From a bacterium (GTDB lineage: Bacteria > Zixibacteria > MSB-5A5 > GN15 > FEB-12), in NCBI GenBank assembly GCA_030629485.1, contig DAOVOW010000010.1, forward strand, positions 1 through 14,580: DNA of 14,580 bases. Direction: 5' to 3'. Positions within the stretch are counted from its first letter, which is position 1. Every line of letters starts with the position of its first letter. Position numbers and translations under genes: made by a program. Shown here piece after piece: positions 235-12,967 of this stretch. Under the pieces are notes generated by a model that searched no databases, was not told the origin of the DNA, and was given only the letters and a program-made list of their open reading frames with translations.

Positions 235-260
235 AAAAAGGCCGGCGGTGAGGCCGGCCT
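235..260 (-). terminator. Intrinsic terminator of the T6SS operon
   Basis: A perfect 8-bp stem (AGGCCGGC at 239-246 with GCCGGCCT at 253-260), a 6-base loop and a run of five T on the minus strand lie 28 bases after the stop of the last gene. This is a textbook Rho-independent terminator and marks the end of the transcript. Confidence 0.88.
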
Positions 261-287: not shown

Positions 288-806
288 TTAGTCCATCAGA
301 ATAACGATATCCTCAGCAATTACCGCCTTAAACGGCTGGTCGGCTGGGATTTCTCCCTGCCCGCCCTTGATGAAGAGTCCGAAAATCAACAGCCAGGACA
401 GCAGCTTCTTGCTCTTGCCGTCGGCGGATATTTCATCGACTGCCTTGAGCATGATTTTCTTGTCACCCTCAGCCTCGTAATTGCCATCCGACTCCAGTTC
501 CAGAAGTTCCACTACAATCGAGCCCGGCTTACCGCCGCGGCCGGCCGCTTCGACTGATTTGACTCTGGCCGAACCCGGGGTGCCGGCCTCTACGACAGTG
601 AAGCCGCCGATCTCTATCGGTGCATTGAGTCGGATAGGCACCAGGTCTCCGGGCGCGAGATACTTGGAGGACACATCCTGACTAAATACGATTTCCACCT
701 CATGTCCCTGAGGTAGCTCGATATCAGCCCAGACGTTCCCGGTCAAGACCATCAGCAGGGCCATAAGAACCGTGGAACACGAGAGTAAGCACTTAGCTTT
801 TTGCAT
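288..806 (-). CDS. Secreted or periplasmic protein with Sec signal peptide, last gene of the T6SS operon
   Basis: The 172-residue product has a clear Sec signal peptide: lysines near the start, a hydrophobic core (STVLMALLMVLTG) and a cleavage site after residue 27 (NVWA before DIE). The mature part is beta-rich, with a block of the type LAPGDLVPIRLNAPIEIGGF followed by VVEAGTPGSARVKSVE, reminiscent of small envelope proteins that carry a beta-barrel of the VirB10/SAF-like style; that likeness is loose. Near the end is a hydrophobic patch (LLSWLLIFGLFIKGGQG) that may touch a membrane. AAGGAG lies eight bases before the ATG at 806 and would overlap the GTG at 815, which decides for the ATG. 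As the only exported product here, it could be the periplasmic or outer-membrane partner that stands in for TssJ. Confidence 0.78.
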   Translation of the reverse strand: MQKAKCLLSCSTVLMALLMVLTGNVWADIELPQGHEVEIVFSQDVSSKYLAPGDLVPIRLNAPIEIGGFTVVEAGTPGSARVKSVEAAGRGGKPGSIVVELLELESDGNYEAEGDKKIMLKAVDEISADGKSKKLLSWLLIFGLFIKGGQGEIPADQPFKAVIAEDIVILMD

Positions 807-814
807 ATTAGTCA

Positions 815-820
815 CTCCTT
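815..820 (-). promoter_or_regulatory. Ribosome binding site that fixes the start of the secreted protein
   Basis: AAGGAG on the minus strand is eight bases before the ATG at 806. It overlaps the GTG at 815, so the longer start is unlikely. Confidence 0.6.
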
Positions 821-845
821 GCTTGCGCTTGTTAAGGGCTCATGC

Positions 846-1436
846 TTACCATTTGGGCAGCAGCTTCTTTGGATCTTCCTCGAAACTGAAACTGATCTTC
901 TCGCCCGTGGCGGTGAACGTGATGATCTCGGTCATTTCCAATATCGCGAAGTCGCTGGTCAACTCGGCCAGCGCCTTGTATGTCTCGCCCCAGCTTTCCT
1001 TGCCGCCGCCGTGGTCCTTTTGGTGGAGGGCGATGAAAATATGGTCACCCTTTCTCCAAAAGATACTGGCCGGTCGATTGATTCTGATCTGCTGCGGTCG
1101 TGGCCACTCGTCCGGCTTGCCCTTGCCAACCACCTTGATATGGATATGATGTCCCGGCGGACAATTGGAGAGTGTGAATCGGTACTCGCGCTCTTTGTCG
1201 AAGTTCTTGGCATCCTTCAGGAACTTGTCGATGCGAGCGACATCTTCCTGTCGGTCCGGATCGGAGACCAGTTGTCTACGATAACTTCGGAGTTTCTTAA
1301 CGCCGGTTCCCAGCAAGAAGGCGGGGTCGGTTTCCTCGGAGAGCCGTGTGGAGAACTGATCAAACTCTACGGTAGTTTTCTGATGGACCACTTCCTGCTT
1401 CTGCTGCAGCTTACGCGAGTTGACTATATCCAGCAT
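846..1436 (-). CDS. Uncharacterised protein of T6SS locus, helical N terminus and beta-rich C terminus
   Basis: I do not recognise this 196-residue protein. The first 95 residues are charged and probably helical (LQQKQEVVHQKTT, VKKLRSYRRQLV, ARIDKFLKDAKNF). The rest alternates hydrophobic and polar residues as in a beta sandwich (YRFTLSNCPPGHHIHIKVVG, RPASIFWRKGDHIFIALHQ, EIITFTATGEKISFSF). There is no signal peptide or membrane segment, so a cytoplasmic site is the default. The gene starts 12 bases after the GTPase-like gene, and a GGTG precedes the ATG. Because canonical TssM ends in a beta-sandwich domain that is missing from the neighbour, one guess is that this gene holds a separated equivalent, but the lack of an export signal speaks against that. 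A regulatory or scaffold partner is equally possible. Confidence 0.65.
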   Translation of the reverse strand: MLDIVNSRKLQQKQEVVHQKTTVEFDQFSTRLSEETDPAFLLGTGVKKLRSYRRQLVSDPDRQEDVARIDKFLKDAKNFDKEREYRFTLSNCPPGHHIHIKVVGKGKPDEWPRPQQIRINRPASIFWRKGDHIFIALHQKDHGGGKESWGETYKALAELTSDFAILEMTEIITFTATGEKISFSFEEDPKKLLPKW

Positions 1437-1448
1437 AGCCGCACCGAG

Positions 1449-3062
1449 TTATTTGGTCTCAGCCGATGGTTTCGGAGTCATGTCCGGATAGAGGTCGATC
1501 TGGCGACCAATGGCAGCCCAGGCTTCGGGCGAATCAGACTGGACCAGGGCAGCCTTGAAAAGATCCCACAATTCGAGAGCCCTGGTGCTGCGGGTTTGCA
1601 GCGATGATCCCTCCGGCGCCTGAGTGTAACGGCTGACGCCGCTTTCCAGCTTGGCCGTTTCCTCAGTCGTCACCACCGTATCTCCGGTCGGCGCAACTTT
1701 GGGCCAGCGGGTGGAGTCACGGACGATGTTGGTCAATTGTCCGATCGACTTCGCCAACTTCTGGAGATCGACTCCCTCGCTAATGGTATTATAGTAATTG
1801 TACACATAGCTTGCCTGCACGGCGAAATCCTGGAATACCCAATTGGCGAATTTCGAACGTGCATACGAGTTATAAGCCGTGCGGAGATCAAGGCGTCCTT
1901 TCTCCGGTATCTCGTGAACGCTGCCCTTGCCCTCCCAGAGCCGATTTTCCAGTGCCGAGATGCGATTCAGTTTCAGATGGAAACTGTATAGATGCGGCGC
2001 CGACCAGACGGCGGCAAAGATGAGACTGAGCACGACTGCGTATTTGGCCAGTTTCCTGAAAGCGACCAGACGGCGGTTGCGTATGATTGACTTCAGCAAC
2101 CAGTAGAACGGTTCCCTCACGCCTGTCGGTTGCATCTTGTCGGGTGGTTTGTAGAGCGACCGACCGACATCGGTGCCGATCTTGGTCGGCTCGACGCCGG
2201 TGTTCGAAGTGAAGAATACCTGAAAATCCAGGGTGCGACCGACGATCAGCTTAAGGAAGTCTTTGAGTTTGACCAGGATGTCTCGCACCGAACCGGCCCA
2301 GGCAGAGTTGGAGGCGATCCGGTGGGAGGCGAGGATATTCTCAAGGAACAACTCGTAATCCTCGGCCAGGAAATGCTCCTGATCGCTCCGGACCAATACC
2401 GTTTGGCCTTCGCCGGAGAACCCCGGCAATACATCGGCCTTGGTAACTACCAAAGCCACCGGAATCGGCAGTCGCCCGCCGGCCGGGGCCAGCATCTCGA
2501 GCATATTGACAAACGAGGCAACATGAGCCTGACACTGCAACTCGGCGCCGAGAACCTTGGGATCGAAAAAGAACAGAAGCCCCTGACAGCCATACATGAA
2601 ATCCCTGACCTTGTCGGCCAGTTCGTGTCGCTCCTGGATCGAGAGAGCCTTGCCGTTGTAATCGTAGGTGACGATCGGGATGTTTTTTGAGCGATCGAGG
2701 ATGACGTTGAACTGAAGGACTTTCTCACTCGGGGTGGACGGCGGAAACTGTTTGTCCTCGCGCAGGTCCACCATCGTGCCGGCACTGTCGGATGTCCCCA
2801 GCCCCCACAGCGCTCGGTAGTTGGCCAGAAACTCTCCGGCTGTAATGTTGTCGGTGACCGAGAGGCCGAGGTTTTTCGATACCTTGCACTCCTCGTTGAG
2901 CACTGTGAAGTAAACTGTCTTGCCGCTGTTGCTGTGGCCGAAGATACCGATCCGCATCCCCGATGGCCAGTCGAAACCACCGCCCACTGCTGCTTTGTCT
3001 TTCCCTTTGGGGGCGGCCTTGGCGCCCTTCTTGAACAGCTTGAATATCTTGCCCAGTTTCAC
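1449..3062 (-). CDS. Membrane-anchored GTPase-like protein, possible reduced TssM/IcmF analogue
   Basis: The 537-residue protein has a complete P-loop GTPase signature near its N terminus: G1 GHSNSGKT (42-49), a likely switch I PPSTP (107-111), G3 DYNG (134-137), G4 TKAD (207-210) and a G5-like FTSNTG (284-289). A basic leader precedes it. One membrane segment follows at about 341-357 (YAVVLSLIFAAVWSA), then about 180 mostly helical residues that should be periplasmic. TssM/IcmF also has a GTPase-like cytoplasmic domain, but it normally starts with two membrane helices and is over 1000 residues long, with a large periplasmic arm. This protein is about half that size. Start is GTG with a weak AGAGAAG upstream. 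I infer that it replaces TssM; an independent GTPase regulator is the alternative. Confidence 0.72.
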   Translation of the reverse strand: MKLGKIFKLFKKGAKAAPKGKDKAAVGGGFDWPSGMRIGIFGHSNSGKTVYFTVLNEECKVSKNLGLSVTDNITAGEFLANYRALWGLGTSDSAGTMVDLREDKQFPPSTPSEKVLQFNVILDRSKNIPIVTYDYNGKALSIQERHELADKVRDFMYGCQGLLFFFDPKVLGAELQCQAHVASFVNMLEMLAPAGGRLPIPVALVVTKADVLPGFSGEGQTVLVRSDQEHFLAEDYELFLENILASHRIASNSAWAGSVRDILVKLKDFLKLIVGRTLDFQVFFTSNTGVEPTKIGTDVGRSLYKPPDKMQPTGVREPFYWLLKSIIRNRRLVAFRKLAKYAVVLSLIFAAVWSAPHLYSFHLKLNRISALENRLWEGKGSVHEIPEKGRLDLRTAYNSYARSKFANWVFQDFAVQASYVYNYYNTISEGVDLQKLAKSIGQLTNIVRDSTRWPKVAPTGDTVVTTEETAKLESGVSRYTQAPEGSSLQTRSTRALELWDLFKAALVQSDSPEAWAAIGRQIDLYPDMTPKPSAETK

Positions 3063-3100
3063 GGTCTATCTTCTCTTTCGACTAACGGCATACCCGGTCC

Positions 3101-4033
3101 TCACCCGCCTTCTTGCAGCTCGGTGAGATGGTCATGCATCTGCTCCAGTCGATCCTGACGGTACTGGCTCCACTTAATCGGAACGTACAGCGCAAATAGT
3201 AGGAATAACACGATGATAATGCTGTAGAAGGCGTAAGCCGGACTGCGTTGAGTCAGCGACATGCGAAAGTATCTCGAACTTGAAAAAACGCCCTTGATCT
3301 TACCACCCAGAGTGCTGAGAAAACCCTTCACCCGCGACCAGAAACCGCCGGCTTTGATTACGTATTGCCAGTCCTTGAAGTACCAGTCGAACAGCGGGCT
3401 GCGCTGGGCCATTTTGGAGAATCCTTCAATGCGATGCATATGGAACTCCAGCGTGGAGCGGTCCTGCATGAGTTCGCTGCCGATTTGGAGGCGACGGCGT
3501 GCTAACTCCAGGAACTTCAGCGGGTCACTTAAGGCCGCAAACGCCTCCGGGTTGAGATCGGTCTTCAACGGCTTGCCGTACGTGTTCATGTAGCGCGCCA
3601 TCTCCGATAAGAAGAAAGCGTTGAGCGGGTAGTTGTTGTTCAGGGCTCCATCTCGAAACAGCAGCGGCACGAGGTGGTTCTCAAAGAACGGCACATCCTG
3701 CTTGACGGCGCGAAGCCCCCGGCAGTAGGTGTACGACCGGTTGGACTGACCATCGATATCCGCCTCTGCCTCAAAGAACGACACCAGAACCTGCACCGTC
3801 AGTTGCCGCAGATCGGAACTTGTCAGCGGCGCCTGCTTGATCTTCTCAAGCAAAAACTGATCAAGCTCCACCGCCTGGTCGCGCTGCTGACGCAAAGCCT
3901 GAAAGACGGCCCCGATACCGTTATATGTCTGCAAGAAAGCCTCGGTGGCAAACTGCTGCGGGTTTTGCTCGAAACTCTGCAGATATCTGAAGATATCCTC
4001 TACATATGATTTAACAGCGATACGGTCGTCCAT
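3101..4033 (-). CDS. Tail-anchored inner-membrane protein, possible TssL-like component of the T6SS membrane complex
   Basis: I do not recognise the family from sequence. The 310-residue chain has a long cytoplasmic helical domain (about 1-240), a basic loop, one strongly hydrophobic segment (about 266-286, with YSIIIVLFLLFALYV) and a short 24-residue tail. This is the topology of TssL/DotU, which has a cytoplasmic domain, one C-terminal membrane helix and little beyond it, and the gene sits next to tssK as tssL often does. The usual TssL sequence blocks are not evident to me. I infer a TssL analogue or a very diverged homologue that receives TssK. GGAG lies about five bases before the ATG, and the gene is ten bases from tssK, so it belongs to the same transcript. 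Confidence 0.7.
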   Translation of the reverse strand: MDDRIAVKSYVEDIFRYLQSFEQNPQQFATEAFLQTYNGIGAVFQALRQQRDQAVELDQFLLEKIKQAPLTSSDLRQLTVQVLVSFFEAEADIDGQSNRSYTYCRGLRAVKQDVPFFENHLVPLLFRDGALNNNYPLNAFFLSEMARYMNTYGKPLKTDLNPEAFAALSDPLKFLELARRRLQIGSELMQDRSTLEFHMHRIEGFSKMAQRSPLFDWYFKDWQYVIKAGGFWSRVKGFLSTLGGKIKGVFSSSRYFRMSLTQRSPAYAFYSIIIVLFLLFALYVPIKWSQYRQDRLEQMHDHLTELQEGG

Positions 4034-4043
4034 TATCTCCGAC

Positions 4044-5492
4044 TCAGATTGAGTATATAATCAAATCCATTTTCGACAGGTTCATGAATCTCTGACTATC
4101 ATCGGCGCCGCGGAAAATAAGTATAATCCGGCTTACCGACGGTGACTTCAGCATGTCCTGGGGGTGCAGCGCCACTTTGTTGCCGTAAGTTACCACATCG
4201 ATCTCCACCGGGTCGGTTTCACCAAGACCGCGAGCCTCATTCAGCCCCAGTCGCACCTGCATACTGGTCCATCGAGCAGTATCGAACAGATCCTTGTTCA
4301 AGAGGATCACGGTGTCACTCATAGCGCGCGCATCGGGAATATCGATCAGCAGGTAACACAGTTCACCCACAACTTCCGTTCGGCAGCCACCATAATCAAC
4401 CACCCGATAAGTCTGTCCGTGATAGGTGAGGGTGTCGGAGGCCACCGCCTGATCGCCGAGTTGTTCCTTCTTGACCTGGGCCAGAAAACCGAAGACGCCA
4501 CGCACCTGGCTCAGGATGTCGTCAATAGCCCGGATGTGGCCGCCGAGATCATTGTGATTGTAGTCGGCCAGCAGGAAGGCATCGACCTGCGACATGAAGC
4601 GACCCACCTCGGAACTCATTTCCTTTATGAAGAAACGCTCGTTGAGTAAGTCCTTCAACCCCGGTTGGAGGTTCAAAAGAGTCGTGAAGGAGCGGAACAG
4701 CCTTTTGAAAAACATGACCAGGTGAATCGGATGTCCGGCGTTCTTGCCGACCACGTAGCTGTCAAGCGTCGAGGACAGGTGGTATGCGAACTGATAGATA
4801 GTATCCTTGAAAGCCTGCTGTAGTTCGGTGTGTTCACCGGAGAGCGCGCCACCAGCGCAAACAGCCATGTATGCGCGTGACGATAACGACAGGAGATTCT
4901 CAAGCCGGTTGCGATAGTCAAGACTCTTGGAGGTCAGTTGTTCGTCGGCATAGAGCGTGACACAGGGCGGGTAGTAATACTCGGCCGGAGTGACGTTACC
5001 ACTGTCGACGGACAGTTCGGCTATTTGCAGGCAGCGTCCCTCGGGCAGGTCCGGCGGGGCGCCCAGGGTCAGTAGATAGTTCCCCGTCAGGTATGGCAAG
5101 CGGGGGAGATCTTCGTGGGGCGCCGGGTCGCCTACCTGTTTGCGAGCAGTTGCGTCGATGCCGATGTACACCGGAACCTTGTCGCTGCTGACTTCACCAT
5201 CCGCGCGAACGGCGGTCTGGTTATCTTCGTTGATCTCAATCACACCGCCATCGGGGGTCAAAGCCTGACAACGAACCACTTCCACGCGCAGACGGTTTCC
5301 CGACATTGACAGGTTCAGGCTCAAAGCTGCGTGGCCGGAGAACGACTTGCGAATCAGACCGTAGCGATCACCAACGTTGAGCGCATACCAGCGGGCCAAT
5401 TCTTCAAAGTAGTTCTCCTGGTCCTGCAGATGCCGCTGGGTGATCAGCATCCCATCCTGCCAGTTAACGGAATATAAGTTCAAGTCAGTCAT
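4044..5492 (-). CDS. tssK: T6SS baseplate protein TssK
   Basis: TssK is the trimeric adaptor that joins the baseplate to the membrane complex. The 482-residue protein opens with the family signature, here VNWQDGMLITQRHLQDQENY, equal to the usual 'v.W.eGm.l.pqHfq..d.y'. The N-terminal shoulder domain, related to phage receptor-binding proteins, is followed by a helical middle (about 195-330, including LENLLSLSSRAYMAVC and HLVMFFKRLFRSFTTLL) and a C-terminal beta-rich head that normally contacts TssL and TssM. Because those partners are atypical here, the head should have diverged with them. The start is the ATG at 5492 in a short gap after tssG. It ends ten bases before the next gene. Confidence 0.88.
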   Translation of the reverse strand: MTDLNLYSVNWQDGMLITQRHLQDQENYFEELARWYALNVGDRYGLIRKSFSGHAALSLNLSMSGNRLRVEVVRCQALTPDGGVIEINEDNQTAVRADGEVSSDKVPVYIGIDATARKQVGDPAPHEDLPRLPYLTGNYLLTLGAPPDLPEGRCLQIAELSVDSGNVTPAEYYYPPCVTLYADEQLTSKSLDYRNRLENLLSLSSRAYMAVCAGGALSGEHTELQQAFKDTIYQFAYHLSSTLDSYVVGKNAGHPIHLVMFFKRLFRSFTTLLNLQPGLKDLLNERFFIKEMSSEVGRFMSQVDAFLLADYNHNDLGGHIRAIDDILSQVRGVFGFLAQVKKEQLGDQAVASDTLTYHGQTYRVVDYGGCRTEVVGELCYLLIDIPDARAMSDTVILLNKDLFDTARWTSMQVRLGLNEARGLGETDPVEIDVVTYGNKVALHPQDMLKSPSVSRIILIFRGADDSQRFMNLSKMDLIIYSI

Positions 5493-5561: not shown

Positions 5562-6512
5562 TCAAACTCCAACTCGTGGTCTCGCAGCGTGGCGGCTCTG
5601 CACAAAGGTAGAGTAACCGAGAAAACTCCGACCTCGTGACGACCCCAGGTTCAGGTCACCCTCGTCCACCTTGATGCGAATCTTGCAGTCCAGGTTTGTC
5701 GGCATGCAGATGCTGAGAACCCATTCGATCTTGCGTCGTTTCGGTTTCCCGGGCAGCAGGTCGGCAACCTCATTCGGTTTGACACCGCTGACCGTAAGGA
5801 CGTAGCTCGAATCATACTCTTGAAAAGACTGCCCCATGACGAGATCATCGCCAAGGCGGCTGTTCCTCCGGCCGAGTCGACATTGTAGATCAGTCGGGAT
5901 ATCGTACCGGGCTGCGACATTCTCGATGAAGCGAAAGTCAAACCCCAAAAGGAAGCGCAGCACGTGGGCCACGAATTCGGGGTTGCCGGCCCACAGGTGA
6001 AACCCTGGCATGATGGCTGCCCACATTAGCGGCTCGCGTATGTGATCGGGCGGTTCCGGCAGGCTGAAGTTGAACAGTTTCAGATAGCGCAGAAGGTAAT
6101 CGAGGTTGACCAGGGCTAAGGAATACTCCAGTCGTTCGTGCAGGGCGACGGTGGTGTACCTGATAACGGAACCATCAAACGGCGCCATCAGGTGGCGGGC
6201 GTTGTCCTCCCATACCCGAGCACCGGCCTGAGTGCCGTGCCAGCCGTAGAAAAACTGGTAGGGCAGCCAGTCGACAGCGCTGGGGAAGCCGACGTCCAGC
6301 ACGACCGTGGTGCTCTCGTCGACCGGCTTGCCGGCGACCGGTTGCTGGCTGAGGATTTCACCCAGGTAATTCCGATGTTCGCCGACCGCCCTGATATGAA
6401 TACGGTGAATATCGATCCCGAGCTTCATCAATAGCGTCAGCGCCGTGGCGTAGTGGAAAGGGTGATGCCGATTGGTCAGGTTCGGCATGATGCAGTGGCC
6501 GCTGTTGTTCAT
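5562..6512 (-). CDS. tssG: T6SS baseplate protein TssG with N-terminal PASTA-like domain
   Basis: TssG forms the baseplate wedge core with TssF. The body of this 316-residue protein is TssG-like: GFDFRFIENVAARYDIP, then LGRRNSRLGDDLVMG and a strand ending NEVADLLPG match the family's 'LG..n..LG.d.vlG ... lLPG' block at about residues 213-255. The N terminus (about 9-75) does not look like the usual TssG start. It reads as a PASTA-type fold: MPNL, a helix with ALTLLMKLGI, then GEILSQQPVAGKPVDESTTV and VVLDVG. PASTA domains are best known from extracytoplasmic cell-wall sensors, yet no signal peptide or membrane segment is seen, so here it should be cytoplasmic. Start ATG overlaps the tssF stop. 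The domain call is by eye and moderately sure. Confidence 0.82.
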   Translation of the reverse strand: MNNSGHCIMPNLTNRHHPFHYATALTLLMKLGIDIHRIHIRAVGEHRNYLGEILSQQPVAGKPVDESTTVVLDVGFPSAVDWLPYQFFYGWHGTQAGARVWEDNARHLMAPFDGSVIRYTTVALHERLEYSLALVNLDYLLRYLKLFNFSLPEPPDHIREPLMWAAIMPGFHLWAGNPEFVAHVLRFLLGFDFRFIENVAARYDIPTDLQCRLGRRNSRLGDDLVMGQSFQEYDSSYVLTVSGVKPNEVADLLPGKPKRRKIEWVLSICMPTNLDCKIRIKVDEGDLNLGSSRGRSFLGYSTFVQSRHAARPRVGV

Positions 6513-8173
6513 CTCAACTCTATCTCAACGGCGAATTGTGTATTGACAGGAGCCCGGGCCTTCAAGAAGTTGGCCAGCCGGATTTCCAGAAGTCCGGTTT
6601 CATCTTCACTATGAAAGTCATCCTTGCCCGCGACGACGGTCACTACGATACACCGCCGGACGCCCCTTTCGAATCGGTGCACACCATTGTCGCAGTGAGC
6701 CTCGACGATGCGAGGGTCGAACGAGCGCGCCCAGTTGGCGATTTCGGCGAAGGTAAGGGCGCGGTCGCGACTGCGCAAACGCGAGGAGGCCTCGGATACG
6801 ATTTGTTCTTCGGTCTTCGCCGGCACCGCACCGGCCGTGGGAATGATGTTCGTGGCCGATTCGATGCCGGGATGGTTCTCGTACAGTTCGGTTATTTTGT
6901 TTGCAGCGATACCGTTGGCATCAACCCCGGCTGTAACTGTATACGTGACCTTGATAGCATCCGGCGGGTTGTCAACTTCGGTGGTGAAATCAAACCAGAG
7001 TGTCAATCTGTCGTCGTGCTCCTCCAACGAGTAGACCCCCTGGGCCCGATCCGAAAGCACCTGATGAGTGGGCACGTAATCCCGATTGTTGGAGTCAGTG
7101 ACATTAGTGATCTCAAAGATCGTCGAAATGTCATCGGGGAGTTCCAGCTCAACCAGCCGGCTCGCGCCGGTGTGCTTGAACGAGGTTAGCTCGGTTTTGT
7201 TCACGACGACAAAACAATCGAAGTAAATGCCGAGCGGTGCAAGCAATTTCGATCTGTCACCACCCGGCGGAAGATCGATTTTGATCCAGAACAGGCTCTC
7301 CGAAGTGGGTTGTTCCAATTGGTTCTGCCGGATCAATGATGCGAGCGTCTCGTCAGCGGGACCAGAGTCCCAGGTACTGCTGAATTTCTCAGGAAGCACT
7401 GCGAAGCTGTCGGCCAGCGGTACGAACAAATCGGAAGTCGATCGCAGCCCACCCCAGTCCAACGGTTGGCCGCCGTTCTGAAAGATTTGCTCGAGACCAT
7501 CACCCAGTCCGGGACAAAAACCACTGTCTTCGTAGAACGACCCAAAGTGACTGCCTGGGTACCAATAGGACCAACGCAGTTGTCTCAGGGCTTCCGGGTC
7601 TCCGTCTATGAATACCACGGCGTTGGTCAAATTGGCACTGGGACCCTGGTACTCTACAGCCACAAACAACTGTTGCGCTTCGCTGATCTCGGCGCCACCC
7701 ATCGTCGGCGCGCCGCCGGCTGGAGCACCTGCGCTAATGTCCACCAGAGTGTCGCCGGACCTTAAATAAACATGCTTAACTTCGGCTGCCAGTATTCTCT
7801 CGGTACGCAACGGCGAGAAGAACAGCGTATGTCCGCCTTCCCGTTTTTCCTTGAAGAAGAACCGGGTGTTAGGGTCTACCTCGACCGCCGGATCGGTCGG
7901 CTGACAACGCATCACGGTAAACGCCGGGACCGGCCAGCGGCGGCACTCCGGCGCCAGCGATCTGATGAGCGACGTGGTCGCCACGTCCCAGGTATGTCCG
8001 ACCTTACTGTCGATCGAGGCAAGCTGGCTGGCGTACATCTGCATTAGTATCCGCAGAATCGGATCCAGTCGTTCCGATGACTCCGGTATCTCAGAGTTGA
8101 ATGACCGCAGCTCGCGGTGCATCTGGGCGAAAATGCGTTCGGTCGATCGAGGTTCGCGTGACTCCATTTTCAT
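6509..8173 (-). CDS. tssF: T6SS baseplate protein TssF
   Basis: TssF is a main wedge component of the baseplate, working with TssG, TssE and TssK. The 554-residue protein begins with the family's helical region, SSERLDPILRILMQMYASQL then ASIDSKVGHTWDVATTSLIR, and the 'L.P......P.p.ft.m.c.p' segment near residues 75-95. The last 130 residues (KTEEQIVSEASSRLRSRDRA and LTFAEIANWARSFDP) resemble the C-terminal domain of phage baseplate J/gp6 proteins, the known structural relatives of TssF. Length is near the family norm (about 580-620). The ATG at 8173 has only a weak binding site, and a second ATG follows two codons later. Its stop overlaps the tssG start as ATGA, so the TssF and TssG partners are translationally coupled. 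Confidence 0.88.
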   Translation of the reverse strand: MKMESREPRSTERIFAQMHRELRSFNSEIPESSERLDPILRILMQMYASQLASIDSKVGHTWDVATTSLIRSLAPECRRWPVPAFTVMRCQPTDPAVEVDPNTRFFFKEKREGGHTLFFSPLRTERILAAEVKHVYLRSGDTLVDISAGAPAGGAPTMGGAEISEAQQLFVAVEYQGPSANLTNAVVFIDGDPEALRQLRWSYWYPGSHFGSFYEDSGFCPGLGDGLEQIFQNGGQPLDWGGLRSTSDLFVPLADSFAVLPEKFSSTWDSGPADETLASLIRQNQLEQPTSESLFWIKIDLPPGGDRSKLLAPLGIYFDCFVVVNKTELTSFKHTGASRLVELELPDDISTIFEITNVTDSNNRDYVPTHQVLSDRAQGVYSLEEHDDRLTLWFDFTTEVDNPPDAIKVTYTVTAGVDANGIAANKITELYENHPGIESATNIIPTAGAVPAKTEEQIVSEASSRLRSRDRALTFAEIANWARSFDPRIVEAHCDNGVHRFERGVRRCIVVTVVAGKDDFHSEDETGLLEIRLANFLKARAPVNTQFAVEIELR

Positions 8174-8293: not shown

Positions 8294-8680
8294 TTATCCG
8301 AGGGCATAGCTGGCCTCGAATTTCATTTCTTCCTTGCCGTCCATGTAGTTGCCGGTGACTTTGACCGTCAGTCCAAGAGCGTGTGGGGACAGATCACTGG
8401 CTAATCCGAACGACGCTGTCACGTTGTACAGCCTCTTCTCGAATTTATCGATAGCATTTCTCAGGCTGGCGCGGATGTCAGCCTTATTGGCCGCGTAAAG
8501 GTCGGCGTACTCCTTGTCCCATAAATCGCAACCGAAATCCGGACTGAAAGGAATAGTGCCGAGGCGGGTGCTCAGTATAAGTCCGACTGTATCTCTGATC
8601 GAATCCTGCAATTCAGCTCTGGCTAAATAGCCTTCGCGCAGCACCAGAGGGAGTGACAGGTATTCCATCAGTTCGGTCAA
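8294..8680 (-). CDS. tssE: T6SS baseplate wedge protein TssE (gp25-like)
   Basis: TssE is the gp25-like wedge subunit that links the baseplate to the first sheath ring. The 128-residue chain has the gp25 core: QDSIRDTVGLILSTRLGTIP followed by FSPDFGCDLWDKEY, then a helix of the type RASLRNAIDKFEKRL and C-terminal beta strands. Length is slightly below the family norm (about 130-160). The start is not certain. A TTG at 8680 overlaps the vgrG stop as TTGA, and an ATG lies four codons later at 8668; neither has a good binding site of its own, which suggests coupling to vgrG translation. A palindrome-rich 120-base gap separates it from tssF. Confidence 0.9.
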   Translation of the reverse strand: MTELMEYLSLPLVLREGYLARAELQDSIRDTVGLILSTRLGTIPFSPDFGCDLWDKEYADLYAANKADIRASLRNAIDKFEKRLYNVTASFGLASDLSPHALGLTVKVTGNYMDGKEEMKFEASYALG

Positions 8681-10464
8681 TTAATCTTGACAATGCCGCC
8701 CTTGATCGTGGTCATGGCGTCACCCTGAAGGGTGGCGGTCGGCGCCTTTACGGTGATGGCTGCGCCGCCCTTCGAGTCGTGATTGATCCCGCCCTCACTT
8801 GAGAAATTCCCACCGGCCTTGATCTTGGTATCCATCGAGCTTTCCGCATTGATGGCGCTGCCCGACTTCAGGGTAATATCACCACTGGTAGTTTCCAGCG
8901 TGATATTCGCACCTTTCAGAGTGATGTCACCGTCGGTTTCGATAGTGACCTTGGGGCCATCGGCACTCAGGGTGATGGTGTTGCCGGACGCCTGAGTGAT
9001 GCAGATAGTCTCGCTGCCGCCCTTGTCGTGAAAGTAGATCTCGTTGCCGCTCTTGGTGCGGAAGATTTTCAGGTCGTTCTCAGCAGCATCATACCCCGCC
9101 GAATGACCAACCGGAGCTTTGTCTACGCCGTTGTAGAGGCTGCCCAGCACAACGGGGCGGTCGGGGTCGCCGTGCTCGAACGCAATTAGTACTTCGTCAT
9201 CGATTTCCGGCAGACAGAAAAAGCCTCGTTCGTTGCCGCTGTGGGGCGTCAGGACTCTCAGCCAGTGATCCGGCTCGGCGCCGGACGAGCCATCATTCCA
9301 TAGGAGTTGAACCTTTATGCGGCCAAGGCCGTCTGGGTCATCGGTGCTGGTGACGATAGCGCTCTGTACATCGGCAAAAAGCTTCCGCGCATACTTCTTC
9401 GGCGGATACGCGGTGTCCAGCGGTGTGCAGGTGAAAGTATTGTGGTAATCGCCCCTGACGTAACGATGACCGACCGACTTGACCCAATGAGGACCATGAA
9501 ACTCGCTGGGCATCCCCGCTATCTTGACGCAGCGGCCGATGTTGACGCGGGGATCCCTCGACCGGCCGTAGCAGTTGACCATCCTGCCGACCGAGCTTTC
9601 GCGCGCCCGCTCAAGCGATTTGTCCATGACCGATTGACTGGTCGGCTTGAGTCCGGCAACAAAGCTACCGTCGGGATAGATATTCTTGGACCCGTCGTGC
9701 GACAGTTTCGGCAAGTCCGAAAGGGAGGTCTTCAGCGCGCCCGACGTCTCACCGTCGTACACATCTTTCTTCAGGTAATCATAGGCCTGAGCAGCGAACT
9801 TCTCGGTGCGCGTGCCAAGACCCATTTTGAATTCAAAGAGGGTTTGGCCGAAAGTCAATTCAACATCTTTATCAGTAGTCTGGGCCTTGCCTGCCGTGAA
9901 TTTCGAACCGTCGTAATAGGCAAACAAACCGCTAAGCCCAGCCAGACGCATGACAAACTGGAAATCGGTTTCGCGGTACTGCACACAATAGGGCAGGTTT
10001 CCCTCGGTTGCTTCGACTCCTCCGACCGTAATCGCATGGTTGTTGAGTACGGCGCTTATAATGTCTTTAGCCGTCTGATCGTGAAACAGCTTGTTCCGCA
10101 GCGCTCCGTCCATCGCTATGGTAGGGCTGTGTGCGATGATGACGACTGAGTTAATCTGGTCGACTGTGTTTTCGTGCCTGACCTCGGTAACCACCCCGAT
10201 AAACTCCATGGCTGTTATCGACCGGGCCTCCTCCCAAACTTCATCCGTTTCTAATTTCAGCGAAATAGTCTCGCCCAGGAAGCCAGAGAACTCCTTCGTC
10301 CCGACAAAGGCGCTCATATCTCGCTCGGCGCCCAGTCCGTGAAGCTCGAGCTTCAGAACATGGTGCCTGTCGACGTACTGGTCCAGCTTAATGGCAGAGA
10401 CCGCGGAAATGAACTCTGCGTCGACGGTTTTGTCAGCTACCTTGATGCGAAAGTCGTAGGCCAT
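8677..10464 (-). CDS. vgrG: T6SS spike protein VgrG/TssI
   Basis: This 595-residue protein forms the trimeric spike on the tip of the Hcp tube. The N-terminal 350 residues are the gp27-like part. The gp5-like OB fold follows (about 365-460), recognised by DDPDGLGRIKVQLLWND, WLRVLTPHSGNERGF and the hallmark EIDDEVLIAFEHGDPDRPVV LGSLYNG. After it comes a glycine- and threonine-rich beta-helix with short repeated strands (ITL, DGDITLKG, SGDITLKSG). The chain stops at TIKGGIVKIN, the usual end of a VgrG needle that is capped by a PAAR protein. There is no C-terminal effector domain, so toxins must be delivered as separate cargo. No PAAR gene is visible in the window. The binding site before the ATG is weak. 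The stop overlaps the likely tssE start. Confidence 0.95.
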   Translation of the reverse strand: MAYDFRIKVADKTVDAEFISAVSAIKLDQYVDRHHVLKLELHGLGAERDMSAFVGTKEFSGFLGETISLKLETDEVWEEARSITAMEFIGVVTEVRHENTVDQINSVVIIAHSPTIAMDGALRNKLFHDQTAKDIISAVLNNHAITVGGVEATEGNLPYCVQYRETDFQFVMRLAGLSGLFAYYDGSKFTAGKAQTTDKDVELTFGQTLFEFKMGLGTRTEKFAAQAYDYLKKDVYDGETSGALKTSLSDLPKLSHDGSKNIYPDGSFVAGLKPTSQSVMDKSLERARESSVGRMVNCYGRSRDPRVNIGRCVKIAGMPSEFHGPHWVKSVGHRYVRGDYHNTFTCTPLDTAYPPKKYARKLFADVQSAIVTSTDDPDGLGRIKVQLLWNDGSSGAEPDHWLRVLTPHSGNERGFFCLPEIDDEVLIAFEHGDPDRPVVLGSLYNGVDKAPVGHSAGYDAAENDLKIFRTKSGNEIYFHDKGGSETICITQASGNTITLSADGPKVTIETDGDITLKGANITLETTSGDITLKSGSAINAESSMDTKIKAGGNFSSEGGINHDSKGGAAITVKAPTATLQGDAMTTIKGGIVKIN

Positions 10465-10545: not shown

Positions 10546-10956
10546 CTATTCCTGCCAGCGGTTATCGATCTCGGCGTCGCCCACGACGACCTTGTGGCAC
10601 GAAATCTCAAAGTAAAGGAAAATCTGATCCTGGGGTCGGTCCTTGATGTGAGGAATGGTCTCGACGAACTTGGTGATGAAACCCTCTTCCCAGGTCAGTT
10701 CTTTCATCGTGGCGTCATCCGGGTTGTGGAAGGTCACTTTGCCGGATTTCCAGTTGGGTTTGCTGGAGTCCATCGCCCAGCGGGCAATGTCCACGTTTCC
10801 TTCCGGATCGGATTCGATGGTCACCTTGATGGTTCCCGCGTGGGCGCGATCGGATGGGCGCCCGGTCTCATCGCGAGCCGTGTAGAGCTCGTATGAGATC
10901 TGATAGACGTTGTCATACTTGACACCATCAATTTCCAAGAATGGTCTTCTTGCCAT
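10546..10956 (-). CDS. tssD: T6SS tube protein Hcp/TssD, Bacteroidota-like family
   Basis: The 136-residue product should form the hexameric rings of the inner tube that the sheath propels. The motifs differ from proteobacterial Hcp and match the TssD family best known from Bacteroidota T6SS: a start with LEIDGVKYDNVYQISYELY, then DETGRPSDRAHAGTIKVTIE, the stretch FHNPDDATMKELTWEEGFI, and a C-terminal strand EISCHKVVVGDAEIDNRW. Length is typical. The start is fixed by AAAAGGAG six bases before the ATG, an excellent site in line with a highly made protein. It sits alone between a 127-base leader and an 81-base gap that holds a strong hairpin, so hcp may be expressed above its neighbours. Confidence 0.9.
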   Translation of the reverse strand: MARRPFLEIDGVKYDNVYQISYELYTARDETGRPSDRAHAGTIKVTIESDPEGNVDIARWAMDSSKPNWKSGKVTFHNPDDATMKELTWEEGFITKFVETIPHIKDRPQDQIFLYFEISCHKVVVGDAEIDNRWQE

Positions 10957-11083: not shown

Positions 11084-12502
11084 TTACTTATCCTTCACGT
11101 TGGTGGCATCGTCCTCGTTCCAGGCGGTGAACTCGATATTGAATGTCCGCGCCGGGTACTTGGGATTCAACGCCACCTTGATATCGATCTCCTGTCGCTT
11201 GCGCATCTCTTCGTCGGCGAAAATCTCCACCCGATAGTCCTGGAGAATATTATCACCGCCTGAGATAGCTTTCATGAACTTGTCGATGTCGCGACGCATG
11301 GCGTCGACGAATTTTTGGTCGATCACACTAAAGGTCTGTTTGTTCAGGTAGTTGCGCAGCGTCTTGTAGACGTAGTCGTAGGTGCGACGAATAGAGTAGA
11401 TATTGAACGTCTCCTTGGTGAACAACGTCGCAGCACCCATAGCCACCGCCGAGCCCTCAAAACTGACCAACGGGTTGACGCCTTTCTCGTTGATCTTGCT
11501 GGCGTCCGGCTGGTTGGCCTTGAAGCGGATATACTTGGCGTCGGCTATCTTGCCGTACTTGAACCCAGCCGATGGCTGCTGCATCCCGGTAGTGGTGTCA
11601 CATTTGTACATCATGCCGGCCACGGAAGCCGACGGCGGGACCCACATGTCGTCGTCCTCGTACTGGTTGGCGCTGCGGGCTTGTAGATAGTTGGCAAAAA
11701 CCGACACGTACTGCTTGTAGTCATCGATTCCCGGCATGTTGGCGTAGTTGGGATCGTCGAGCATCTCCATGACCTCTTCGAAACTTTCGAAGTTCGGCAG
11801 GTCGGTCATGACATGCACCTTGTTGGGCAACCCCAACTGCCGAGCCACGTTGTCGATATTCTCAACACTGCCCAGATAGCCGGGTATCACGGCCATCGAG
11901 AAACACTCTTTGATGCTCCACTCGCGGTAGAGATCGGCCACAGCTTTTGAGACTTCTTCAAACTTCTCTTTGTCGTCCGGGTCGGTCAATGCCTCTGCAC
12001 TGACGTTGGCGAACCAGGCGTTGACTTTCTCGTCCGGCTCCTGCTGCGCGTTGGAAAAGAACTTGTCAACCCCACGGTAGGTCGTCTCCAGTTCACGATT
12101 GGCTTGGTGGACCTTTTTCATGTTCTTTTCCAGATTGGTCTCCAGCTTGGCTGACTGCTCGCTGAGAGACTTGCGAACCTCGTCCAAGTTGTCACTCTGA
12201 GACAAATACTGCACCCAGAGCTTAAGCCTCTCACCCAGAAGTTTGCGCTGGACGGCAAACTCCTTCTTGGTAAGGAACTCCTTGCGTTGGAAATCCTTCT
12301 TGGGGTCGAGCCACTCGATCCCCCGGACCAGGTCGCCGTCGGCGGTCTTGAACGACGGCAACAAATTGGCTAACTTCTTGAAATCTCCGAAGGAATCGCT
12401 CAGAATCGACGCGAATTCCTCATCGGAGACCTTTTCTGCTGCCGGCTTCGCCTCTGCTGCTTTGGCCGGCTGCGGCTGAGCTTGTTTTTCTTCTTCGCCC
12501 AT
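11084..12502 (-). CDS. tssC: T6SS contractile sheath large subunit TssC (VipB)
   Basis: This 472-residue protein is the large sheath subunit that interlocks with TssB and contracts to drive the tube outwards. The first 25-30 residues are a low-complexity Ala/Lys/Glu/Gln/Pro leader. Conserved TssC features follow: the helical N-terminal half, the segment WFANVSAEALTDP, the strand SMAVIPGYLGSVENID, and WVPPSASVAGMMYKCDTTTG, which is the usual 'vPpSg.vAGvyar.D...Gvw.aPA' region. The C-terminal part has FNIYSIRRTYDYVYKTLRN and the terminal beta strands around RQEIDIKVALNPKYPARTF that knit into neighbouring sheath subunits. Length is close to the family norm (about 450-500). GAGGT lies about ten bases before the ATG. 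It is followed by a 127-base gap, the longest in the operon, before hcp. Confidence 0.92.
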   Translation of the reverse strand: MGEEEKQAQPQPAKAAEAKPAAEKVSDEEFASILSDSFGDFKKLANLLPSFKTADGDLVRGIEWLDPKKDFQRKEFLTKKEFAVQRKLLGERLKLWVQYLSQSDNLDEVRKSLSEQSAKLETNLEKNMKKVHQANRELETTYRGVDKFFSNAQQEPDEKVNAWFANVSAEALTDPDDKEKFEEVSKAVADLYREWSIKECFSMAVIPGYLGSVENIDNVARQLGLPNKVHVMTDLPNFESFEEVMEMLDDPNYANMPGIDDYKQYVSVFANYLQARSANQYEDDDMWVPPSASVAGMMYKCDTTTGMQQPSAGFKYGKIADAKYIRFKANQPDASKINEKGVNPLVSFEGSAVAMGAATLFTKETFNIYSIRRTYDYVYKTLRNYLNKQTFSVIDQKFVDAMRRDIDKFMKAISGGDNILQDYRVEIFADEEMRKRQEIDIKVALNPKYPARTFNIEFTAWNEDDATNVKDK

Positions 12503-12526: not shown

Positions 12527-12967
12527 CTATTCCGTGAGTAGATCTATGTAATAGCTGGCCGCTTTCAAAAGCGCTTCTTTCTTCTCTTTGTCGCCCAGCG
12601 TTTTCTTTAGAGGGTTGTTCTTCTTCAACTGCTTGTCGAGATCGGCCATCATCTCCTTCTGGTAGTAAGTCTTCTGAAGAAAGTCGTTCTTCTCAATCAG
12701 CTCTTTCGATGAGAAGTCCTTCATCGCCTTAATCTCAAAGTCAGCGTTGATCGGTTCCCCCTCGGCCGACTCCAGTTCGGTGGAGAACGACGGTCGATAC
12801 TTCTGGAACACTTCTTTGAGGTTGTTGCACCGCGTCGGTGTAACGTCGGCATCCTCCTCACTGTTCAGTTTTGCGGCGTAGAGCATCTTGTTGGAGGGGA
12901 GAAGCTCGACCGGCACCGAGTCGTCTTTTTTGATCCGTTCCGTTGCCCCAAGAATGAACTTGGCCAT
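12527..12967 (-). CDS. tssB: T6SS contractile sheath small subunit TssB (VipA)
   Basis: TssB pairs with TssC to build the cytoplasmic contractile sheath around the Hcp tube. The 146-residue protein is a little shorter than usual (about 160-180). Recognition rests on the central part: the stretch around TRCNNLKEVFQKYRPS, then the paired strand INADFEIKAMKDFSSKEL, which corresponds to the conserved 'v.l.F.smdDFsP' segment of TssB, and a C-terminal helical part rich in lysine. The start is well set, with GGAGG five bases before the ATG. It lies 30 bases after the ClpV stop and 24 bases before tssC, the usual tssB-tssC pair. The direct link of ClpV to tssB fits ClpV acting on this sheath. Confidence 0.9.
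   Translation of the reverse strand: MAKFILGATERIKKDDSVPVELLPSNKMLYAAKLNSEEDADVTPTRCNNLKEVFQKYRPSFSTELESAEGEPINADFEIKAMKDFSSKELIEKNDFLQKTYYQKEMMADLDKQLKKNNPLKKTLGDKEKKEALLKAASYYIDLLTE

Follow-up and report, generated by a model that had tools for sequence, protein, structure and literature searches.

In the window analysed here, the whole 14,580-nucleotide contig DAOVOW010000010.1 of assembly GCA_030629485.1, three genes on the minus strand follow tssK in the operon of a type VI secretion system (T6SS) whose tail resembles that of the Bacteroidota type (T6SSiii), and these genes probably specify the part of its base that lies in the inner membrane and the periplasm. Their products are a tail-anchored protein of 310 residues (TM310), a membrane GTPase and an exported protein (Sec175). 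Judging from their sequences, the trio looks like a real and conserved T6SS membrane module, apparently an undescribed one. The set is best read as an alternative membrane complex, since the genes travel with tssK and match no TssJ, TssL, TssM or TssN to TssR model, and since DotU is absent from the window's own genome and rare in the phylum, while TssN was found in none of the phylum genomes searched. From the gene order, the co-occurrence, the missing profile matches to known base proteins, the predicted topology and the motifs, we infer that the three products assemble together, interact with TssK and are required for secretion. An earlier note on this DNA had suggested a possible new envelope module made of four genes; the idea of such a module is supported, and the four-gene description is not.

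Three genes after tssK, one of them interrupted

Past tssK, the minus strand carries four open reading frames (ORFs; 3101-4033, 1449-3062, 846-1436 and 288-815), which had been taken for the genes of a tail-anchored protein, a half-size GTPase with one membrane helix, a soluble beta-rich protein and a secreted protein. The second and third share a frame and are parted by a single TAA, and in homologues both stretches form one ORF of about 735 residues, comparable with the roughly 737 residues of the window gene when joined. Because homologues join these two ORFs, we rejected the reading as four genes; on this alignment a single membrane GTPase accounts for both the "half-size GTPase" and the "soluble beta-rich protein". 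The P-loop GTPase and its membrane helix were thus correctly recognised, whereas its size was not, and the beta-rich part has no gene of its own. Among 36 ORFs counted as complete, two were short, namely a frame-broken copy in locus L049 and the divergent 620-residue protein of L046.

The nearest copy available for comparison, P0001 from locus L001 of a same-genus genome, is 94% identical to the window GTPase protein. Relative to L001, nonsynonymous and synonymous divergence (dN and dS) were 0.028 and 0.192 before the stop and 0.070 and 0.664 after it. The stretch past the stop therefore looks to be still under purifying selection (dN/dS about 0.11), which points to a stop that is either recent or an assembly error. 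It is quite possible, though we lean against it, that the T6SS is decaying in this genome and that the stop is a true pseudogene mutation: the gene is present there in single copy, with one TAA. Against such decay stand the purifying selection just described and the remaining tss genes of the window, which are open, and an assembly error is equally likely in a metagenome-assembled genome (MAG) of 437 contigs. With its gene interrupted by one stop, this copy of the GTPase may be non-functional, or the stop may belong to the assembly. A further interrupted copy was seen at L049:6068-7782, where the GTPase gene is split into two overlapping frames, and genomes G054 and G071 each carry a single stop within the TM310 match.

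The predicted topologies are consistent across homologues. A single C-terminal transmembrane (TM) helix was predicted in all 53 TM310 homologues, so that the description of the first protein as tail-anchored held, and its AlphaFold2 model has a mean confidence (pLDDT) of 84. Of 58 GTPase homologues, 52 have one predicted TM helix, five have none (P0001 included) and one has two; the protein runs from P-loop NTPase to TM helix to a domain placed in the periplasm by the predicted topology. Against a viral fold library, the best 50 matches listed for the GTPase were mostly generic GTPases and dynamin-like proteins. Sec175 has a predicted signal-peptide-like start, in agreement with the secreted protein of the earlier note.

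Gene order and co-occurrence in related genomes

Scanning species genomes yielded 49 loci with the GTPase, labelled Zixibacteria, GN15, Krumholzibacteria and Latescibacterota, with a few other labels that are possibly misbinned. The order TssK-TM310-GTPase was found at 40 of 41 testable loci and the exported gene came next after the GTPase at 34 of 35, which bears out the co-linearity with the T6SS that had been proposed from the window. The exceptions are L006, which has no tssK beside the GTPase and runs of N around the gene, and the divergent L046, with a GAP1-N2-like gene between. Further support comes from the divergent subclade, which carries the same trio: L098 is a complete divergent locus with the same operon, in which the GTPase is smaller and the exported gene lies on the other strand, and L054 is similar.

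Among 132 genomes of the phylum, TM310 was detected in 58 and the T6SSiii-like TssC in 65, with both in 56, TM310 only in 2, TssC only in 9 and neither in 65. The association between TM310 and TssC is beyond chance (Fisher p about 5e-25, uncorrected for relatedness), and since the profile used (A3) missed the divergent subclade, as in G064, the true number of genomes with TM310 is at least 58 of 132. The genomes with TssC only were G017, G051, G061 to G065, G095 and G112, and four of these can be explained: G064 carries the divergent trio, in G112 a GTPase and TssC lie about 8 kb apart, and in G062 and G063 the contigs stop before tssK. In G113 the GTPase directly adjoins TM310.

Markers of the known complexes were distributed differently. 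DotU/TssL is absent from the window's own genome and was found in 12 of the 132 phylum genomes, sharing a genome with this TssC only in G045, and so in the remaining genomes the gap in the membrane part is not filled by DotU. Loci L052 and L053 are apparently canonical type i (T6SSi) loci with TssK-TssL-TssM, and G045 has both kinds of T6SS. TssN (PF17555) was found in none of the 132 genomes, and the same search was positive in both of two Bacteroidota plasmid records. A passage of PMC4454575 reports ten of the thirteen core tss genes in Latescibacteria without naming them, which is consistent with the present finding.

Several observations weigh against the trio as the base of the system. 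TssC occurs with no detected TM310 and no explanation in G017, G051 and G095, and G061 and G065 are also TssC-only; conversely, TM310 occurs without TssC in G060 and G089 (64% and 77% complete). In G114 and G115 the GTPase lies about 600-670 kb from TM310, perhaps through scaffolding, with none beside TM310 in G115, and in G118 (69% complete) TM310 was found and no GTPase. The GTPase gene is broken in the window's own genome. For TM310, Foldseek returned no significant fold match (best E 0.41), and identity with TssL found no support by profile (hhalign probability 0.16). Finally, the evidence is genomic throughout.

Relation to known membrane complexes and origin of the GTPase

None of the four ORFs reached a TssJ, TssL, TssM or TssN to TssR model in Pfam or NCBIfam, as the earlier note had judged by eye when it recognised neither the canonical trans-envelope parts nor the TssN to TssR families. 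Where that note fell short is the layout, which is the tssK-tssL-tssM arrangement of T6SSi: tssK is followed first by a tail-anchored protein and next by a P-loop NTPase that has a TM helix and a periplasmic part, and E. coli TssL is likewise C-tail anchored according to the part of PMC3426401 consulted. The trio GTPase also carries a weak TssM-like signal. Unlike T6SSi, however, the trio has no TssJ, TssL or TssM match at curated cut-offs, and its GTPase has about 735 residues and one TM helix, compared with about 1,130 residues and three TM helices for the TssM of enteroaggregative E. coli in the text seen of PMC3213119. Its C-terminal domain is dissimilar to TssM by profile; motifs had by look suggested a TssM-like domain there, and this candidate was rejected. 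A TssJ identity of the exported protein was likewise rejected (no match; hhalign probability 2, and 0.3 for the divergent subclade), and none of 29 exported proteins has a lipobox, the lipoprotein signal of TssJ. TM310 of the window had no match to PF09850 or TIGR03349, PF09850 was not among the matches listed for the 53 homologues (25 of 27 families), and the DotU fold ranked seventh for TM310, amid unrelated helical proteins. Searching PDB sequences with the TM310 and GTPase profiles gave nothing credible (best a Mis12 chain, 0.0067).

The system has a T6SSiii-type tail and TssK, but the Bacteroidota described in the part of PMC10781749 consulted use a TssN-Q-O-P-R membrane complex. The GTPase and exported families had no match among 24 proteins taken from four T6SS records of Bacteroidota, in which the T6SSiii parts other than TssN were compared as single sequences. 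We rejected a TssN to TssR identity of the trio, the exceptions being two matches of TM310 that we do not trust, one to a TssO (15.6 bits, filters off) and one to a Runella protein (hhalign probability 11).

The GTPase is nearest to the DO-GTPase2 family and is possibly a distant relative of TssM. Among the matches listed (25 of 49 families), DO-GTPase2 (PF19993) was the sole Pfam family matching all 58 members, above its curated cut-off of 27 bits in two divergent ones (L054, 33.0; L098, 27.2) and below it in the window protein (7.6e-5, 22.9 bits) and in P0001 (22.8). IcmF-related_N came next, with sub-threshold matches in 39 of 58 (best E 1.5e-4) within the same listed matches; P0001 scored 12.1 of the 25 bits set for PF14331, and NCBIfam IcmF matched neither P0001 nor P0081. 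Because a search for TssM homologues returned the query alone, the TssM and TssL sets were drawn from annotated plasmids. Against the 13-sequence TssM profile, hhalign gave a probability of 83 for the GTPase family (E 9e-6, over the G4 region) and of 96 for the divergent three-sequence subclade. Single sequences aligned to the main GTPase profile overlapped, with seven E. coli GTPases at 22-38 and the 13 TssM at 27-44; the L098 GTPase as a single sequence scored 45 with the TssM profile, 38 with HflX and 27 with ObgE. The motif TKxD..GF, picked after viewing the alignment, occurs in 48 of 58 GTPases, 8 of 13 TssM and none of the seven E. coli GTPases. These weak profile signals leave room for a distant kinship with TssM.

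Two origins could be considered. The GTPase may have been recruited from the membrane-associated switches of the DO-GTPase/GAP1 kind, so that the complex arose independently of both TssJLM and TssNQOPR, a possibility that we place not far short of even. The DO-GTPase2 matches favour it, and so does the gene directly after the GTPase at L098:2549-3364 (-) and L046:2368-3195 (+), which matches GAP1-N2 at 1.1e-4, just under the Pfam cut-off; in PMC7159879, the founding paper on these systems, GAP1 genes typically lie downstream of DO-GTPase genes, and a place at the membrane is reported to be frequent. The same paper names a conserved Walker B glutamate for DO-GTPase2. Such an origin is less comfortable with the sub-cut-off scores of the window protein and P0001, and with the Pfam result that the window holds no GAP1 gene; the trio GTPase also differs from those systems in lying in single copy within a T6SS operon. 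Moreover, DO-GTPases and TssM are both P-loop GTPases, so a Pfam match cannot separate the two origins. The main text of PMC7159879 mentions T6SS and IcmF nowhere and 'type VI' once. Alternatively, the trio could be a shrunken, very divergent TssL-TssM pair of canonical ancestry, with the exported protein in the role of TssJ, which the shared layout and the weak TssM signal would suit. We find this doubtful: the divergent subclade favours the control GTPases HflX (61.8) and ObgE (54.4), each above every single TssM (28-45), and the domain, TM-helix and lipobox comparisons given above, together with the lack of any TssL or TssJ profile match, count against it, as does, less clearly, the fold ranking of TM310.

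The real membrane complex could conceivably lie elsewhere, for instance in a neighbouring convergent block or at an unlinked locus, with the trio as a regulatory or accessory module, but we consider this unlikely. In many relatives the opposite strand past the exported gene carries this convergent block, made up of a lipoprotein, a beta-barrel-like protein of about 373 residues, a lipoprotein with tetratricopeptide repeats (TPR) that resembles CsgG, a CsgG-like protein and a Ser/Thr kinase, as at L008:12846-18800 (-), L034:12861-19594 (-) and L001:17222-21578 (-), the kinase of L008 having a PEGA domain. By single-linkage blastp clustering, the barrel cluster covers 21 loci and the TPR/CsgG cluster 18, set beside 26 loci with more than 2.5 kb downstream (at least one barrel locus, L004, has less, and the mixed kinase cluster was not counted). 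The barrel assignment stems from a weak OMP_b-brl match (0.01) in one of two proteins tested. The window contig ends before the block, and four block genes lie on the 4.5-kb contig C77 (L097) of its own genome. These outer-membrane-type parts near the operon make the block a possible outer-membrane partner or regulator. As the home of the whole base it is unlikely, for it offers no tail-anchored or TssK-adjacent candidate; five loci (L003, L012, L014, L030 and L035) have the trio with no adjoining barrel-TPR pair, by ORF sizes; and the trio sits within the tss operon beside tssK, like the membrane-complex genes of T6SSi. Between the T6SS operon and the block, L001:13255-16911 (+) encodes a beta-helix/Ig protein of 1218 residues that carries a Por-type sorting domain at its C-terminus.

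We hypothesise that in the alternative membrane complex TM310 takes the position of TssL, its cytoplasmic part probably binding TssK, and that the GTPase takes that of TssM, with a Ras-fold GTPase in the cytoplasm, one TM helix and a long helical and beta-rich periplasmic part reaching toward the outer membrane. Together they would form an inner-membrane platform, and the TssK baseplate would dock on TM310 and the GTPase domain. GTP binding or hydrolysis would probably gate assembly, docking or opening, the exported protein would probably complete the periplasmic part, and the convergent block may supply the outer-membrane anchor. A more speculative extension, which we offer tentatively, is that Zixibacteria, Krumholzibacteria and their neighbours hold a third, independently assembled T6SS membrane complex, in which a T6SSiii-like tail stands on a GTP-switched base derived from DO-GTPase-type switches, with a kinase-linked CsgG/beta-barrel/lipoprotein partner in the outer membrane.

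A T6SSiii-like tail on a GTPase base in the TssK-TssL-TssM layout would either connect the two known complexes or be a third solution reached independently of both. Surveys using TssJLM or TssN to TssR as markers would miss, or call incomplete, the T6SS with TssC found in 65 of the 132 phylum genomes. The non-canonical T6SS of Acinetobacter, in the part of PMC10564176 consulted, similarly lacks TssJ and has lineage-specific envelope proteins, but unlike the trio it keeps canonical TssL and TssM. Among the open-access matches listed, from a search covering neither subscription papers nor preprints, no description of the trio was found; PMC12172429 and PMC9765016, in the parts consulted, were unrelated to it.

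The tail genes and other features of the window

The window is the complete contig C32 of a 2.47-Mb, Zixibacteria-type MAG, and candidate division Zixibacteria is the label of many of its nearest named relatives. On the minus strand the genes run ClpV (two ORFs), TssB, TssC, Hcp, VgrG, TssE, TssF, TssG and TssK, followed by the trio (Table 1). Pfam identified TssB, TssC, Hcp, VgrG, TssE, TssG and TssK; TssF was assigned through a related model below its cut-off, and the ClpV-type ATPase is truncated by the contig end. The TssF-position protein had no Pfam TssF match, its sub-cut-off model being a general baseplate assembly one, and to that extent the baseplate is divergent too. TssK fell below the cut-off of the NCBIfam model, and a TssK family search of the window's own genome gave no match, though hmmscan does find TssK.

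TssC and Hcp are of the T6SSiii type, and the nearest solved Hcp is a Bacteroidales TssD. TssC matches turned up in 20 plasmid records; in 9 of them the match covers 80% or more of the query, and all 9 bear Bacteroidota names. The TssK family here matches a T6SSiii TssK from Bernardetia (E 1.7e-29). A tree of TssC places the family beside T6SSiii, apart from T6SSi and extracellular contractile injection systems (eCIS), with weak support (80/91), long branches and few reference rows (two T6SSi, three eCIS). By these comparisons the tail resembles, and would belong near, the Bacteroidota T6SSiii, the tree placement being weakly supported.

Table 1. Features of the window, all on the minus strand, with the basis of each assignment
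Feature	Position	Strand	Basis
Probable operon terminator: GC-rich inverted repeat, then T run	235..259	-	by eye, not by terminator scan
Sec175, exported: signal peptide, no lipobox; start possibly ATG at 806	288..815	-	
GTPase gene, second part (listed as 196-aa ORF 846-1436): helices and C-terminal beta-rich domain	846..1448	-	homologue alignment; structure of intact P0001
In-frame TAA stop breaking GTPase gene	1449..1451	-	
GTPase gene, first part: P-loop GTPase, TM helix, helical periplasmic region, up to in-frame stop	1449..3062	-	
GTPase TM helix	2013..2069	-	predicted
G4 TKAD with TssM-like extension, TKADVLPGF	2418..2444	-	
G3 DYNG	2652..2663	-	pattern in 57/58 homologues
G1/Walker A GHSNSGKT	2916..2939	-	pattern in 58/58 homologues
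TM310, 310 aa: helical cytoplasmic part, one C-terminal TM helix, short periplasmic tail	3101..4033	-	topology predicted
TM310 C-terminal TM helix	3176..3232	-	hydropathy
TssK, baseplate-membrane connector	4044..5492	-	PF05936 3.7e-7, above cut-off
TssG	5562..6512	-	PF06996 2.4e-16
TssF-position baseplate protein	6509..8173	-	TIGR02243 1.6e-5, under its cut-off
TssE/gp25	8294..8680	-	PF04965 5.9e-13
VgrG/TssI	8677..10464	-	Pfam, NCBIfam
Hcp/TssD, Bacteroidota-like	10546..10956	-	PF17642 1.9e-21; PDB 7yw0 1.7e-14
TssC, Bacteroidota-like	11084..12502	-	PF17541 4e-70
TssB	12527..12967	-	PF05591 3.2e-6
ClpV, two ORFs with 4-base overlap, truncated at contig end	12998..14580	-	named by position

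The C-terminal half of ClpV scores closer to ClpB than to TssH/ClpV in NCBIfam. A ClpV in two ORFs, with the C-terminal AAA half as a separate gene, was also found at L057:16928-19476, L098:15068-17000 and L094:1359-3899, the 4-base overlap being seen in the window and in L057, and two adjacent AAA genes are likewise present in an annotated Runella T6SSiii record (L077). In another divergent locus, close to its ClpV end, L095:1277-2864 (+) encodes an FHA-domain protein (Pfam) and a protein like the Ser/Thr kinase of the convergent block, a pairing that suggests control by phosphorylation.

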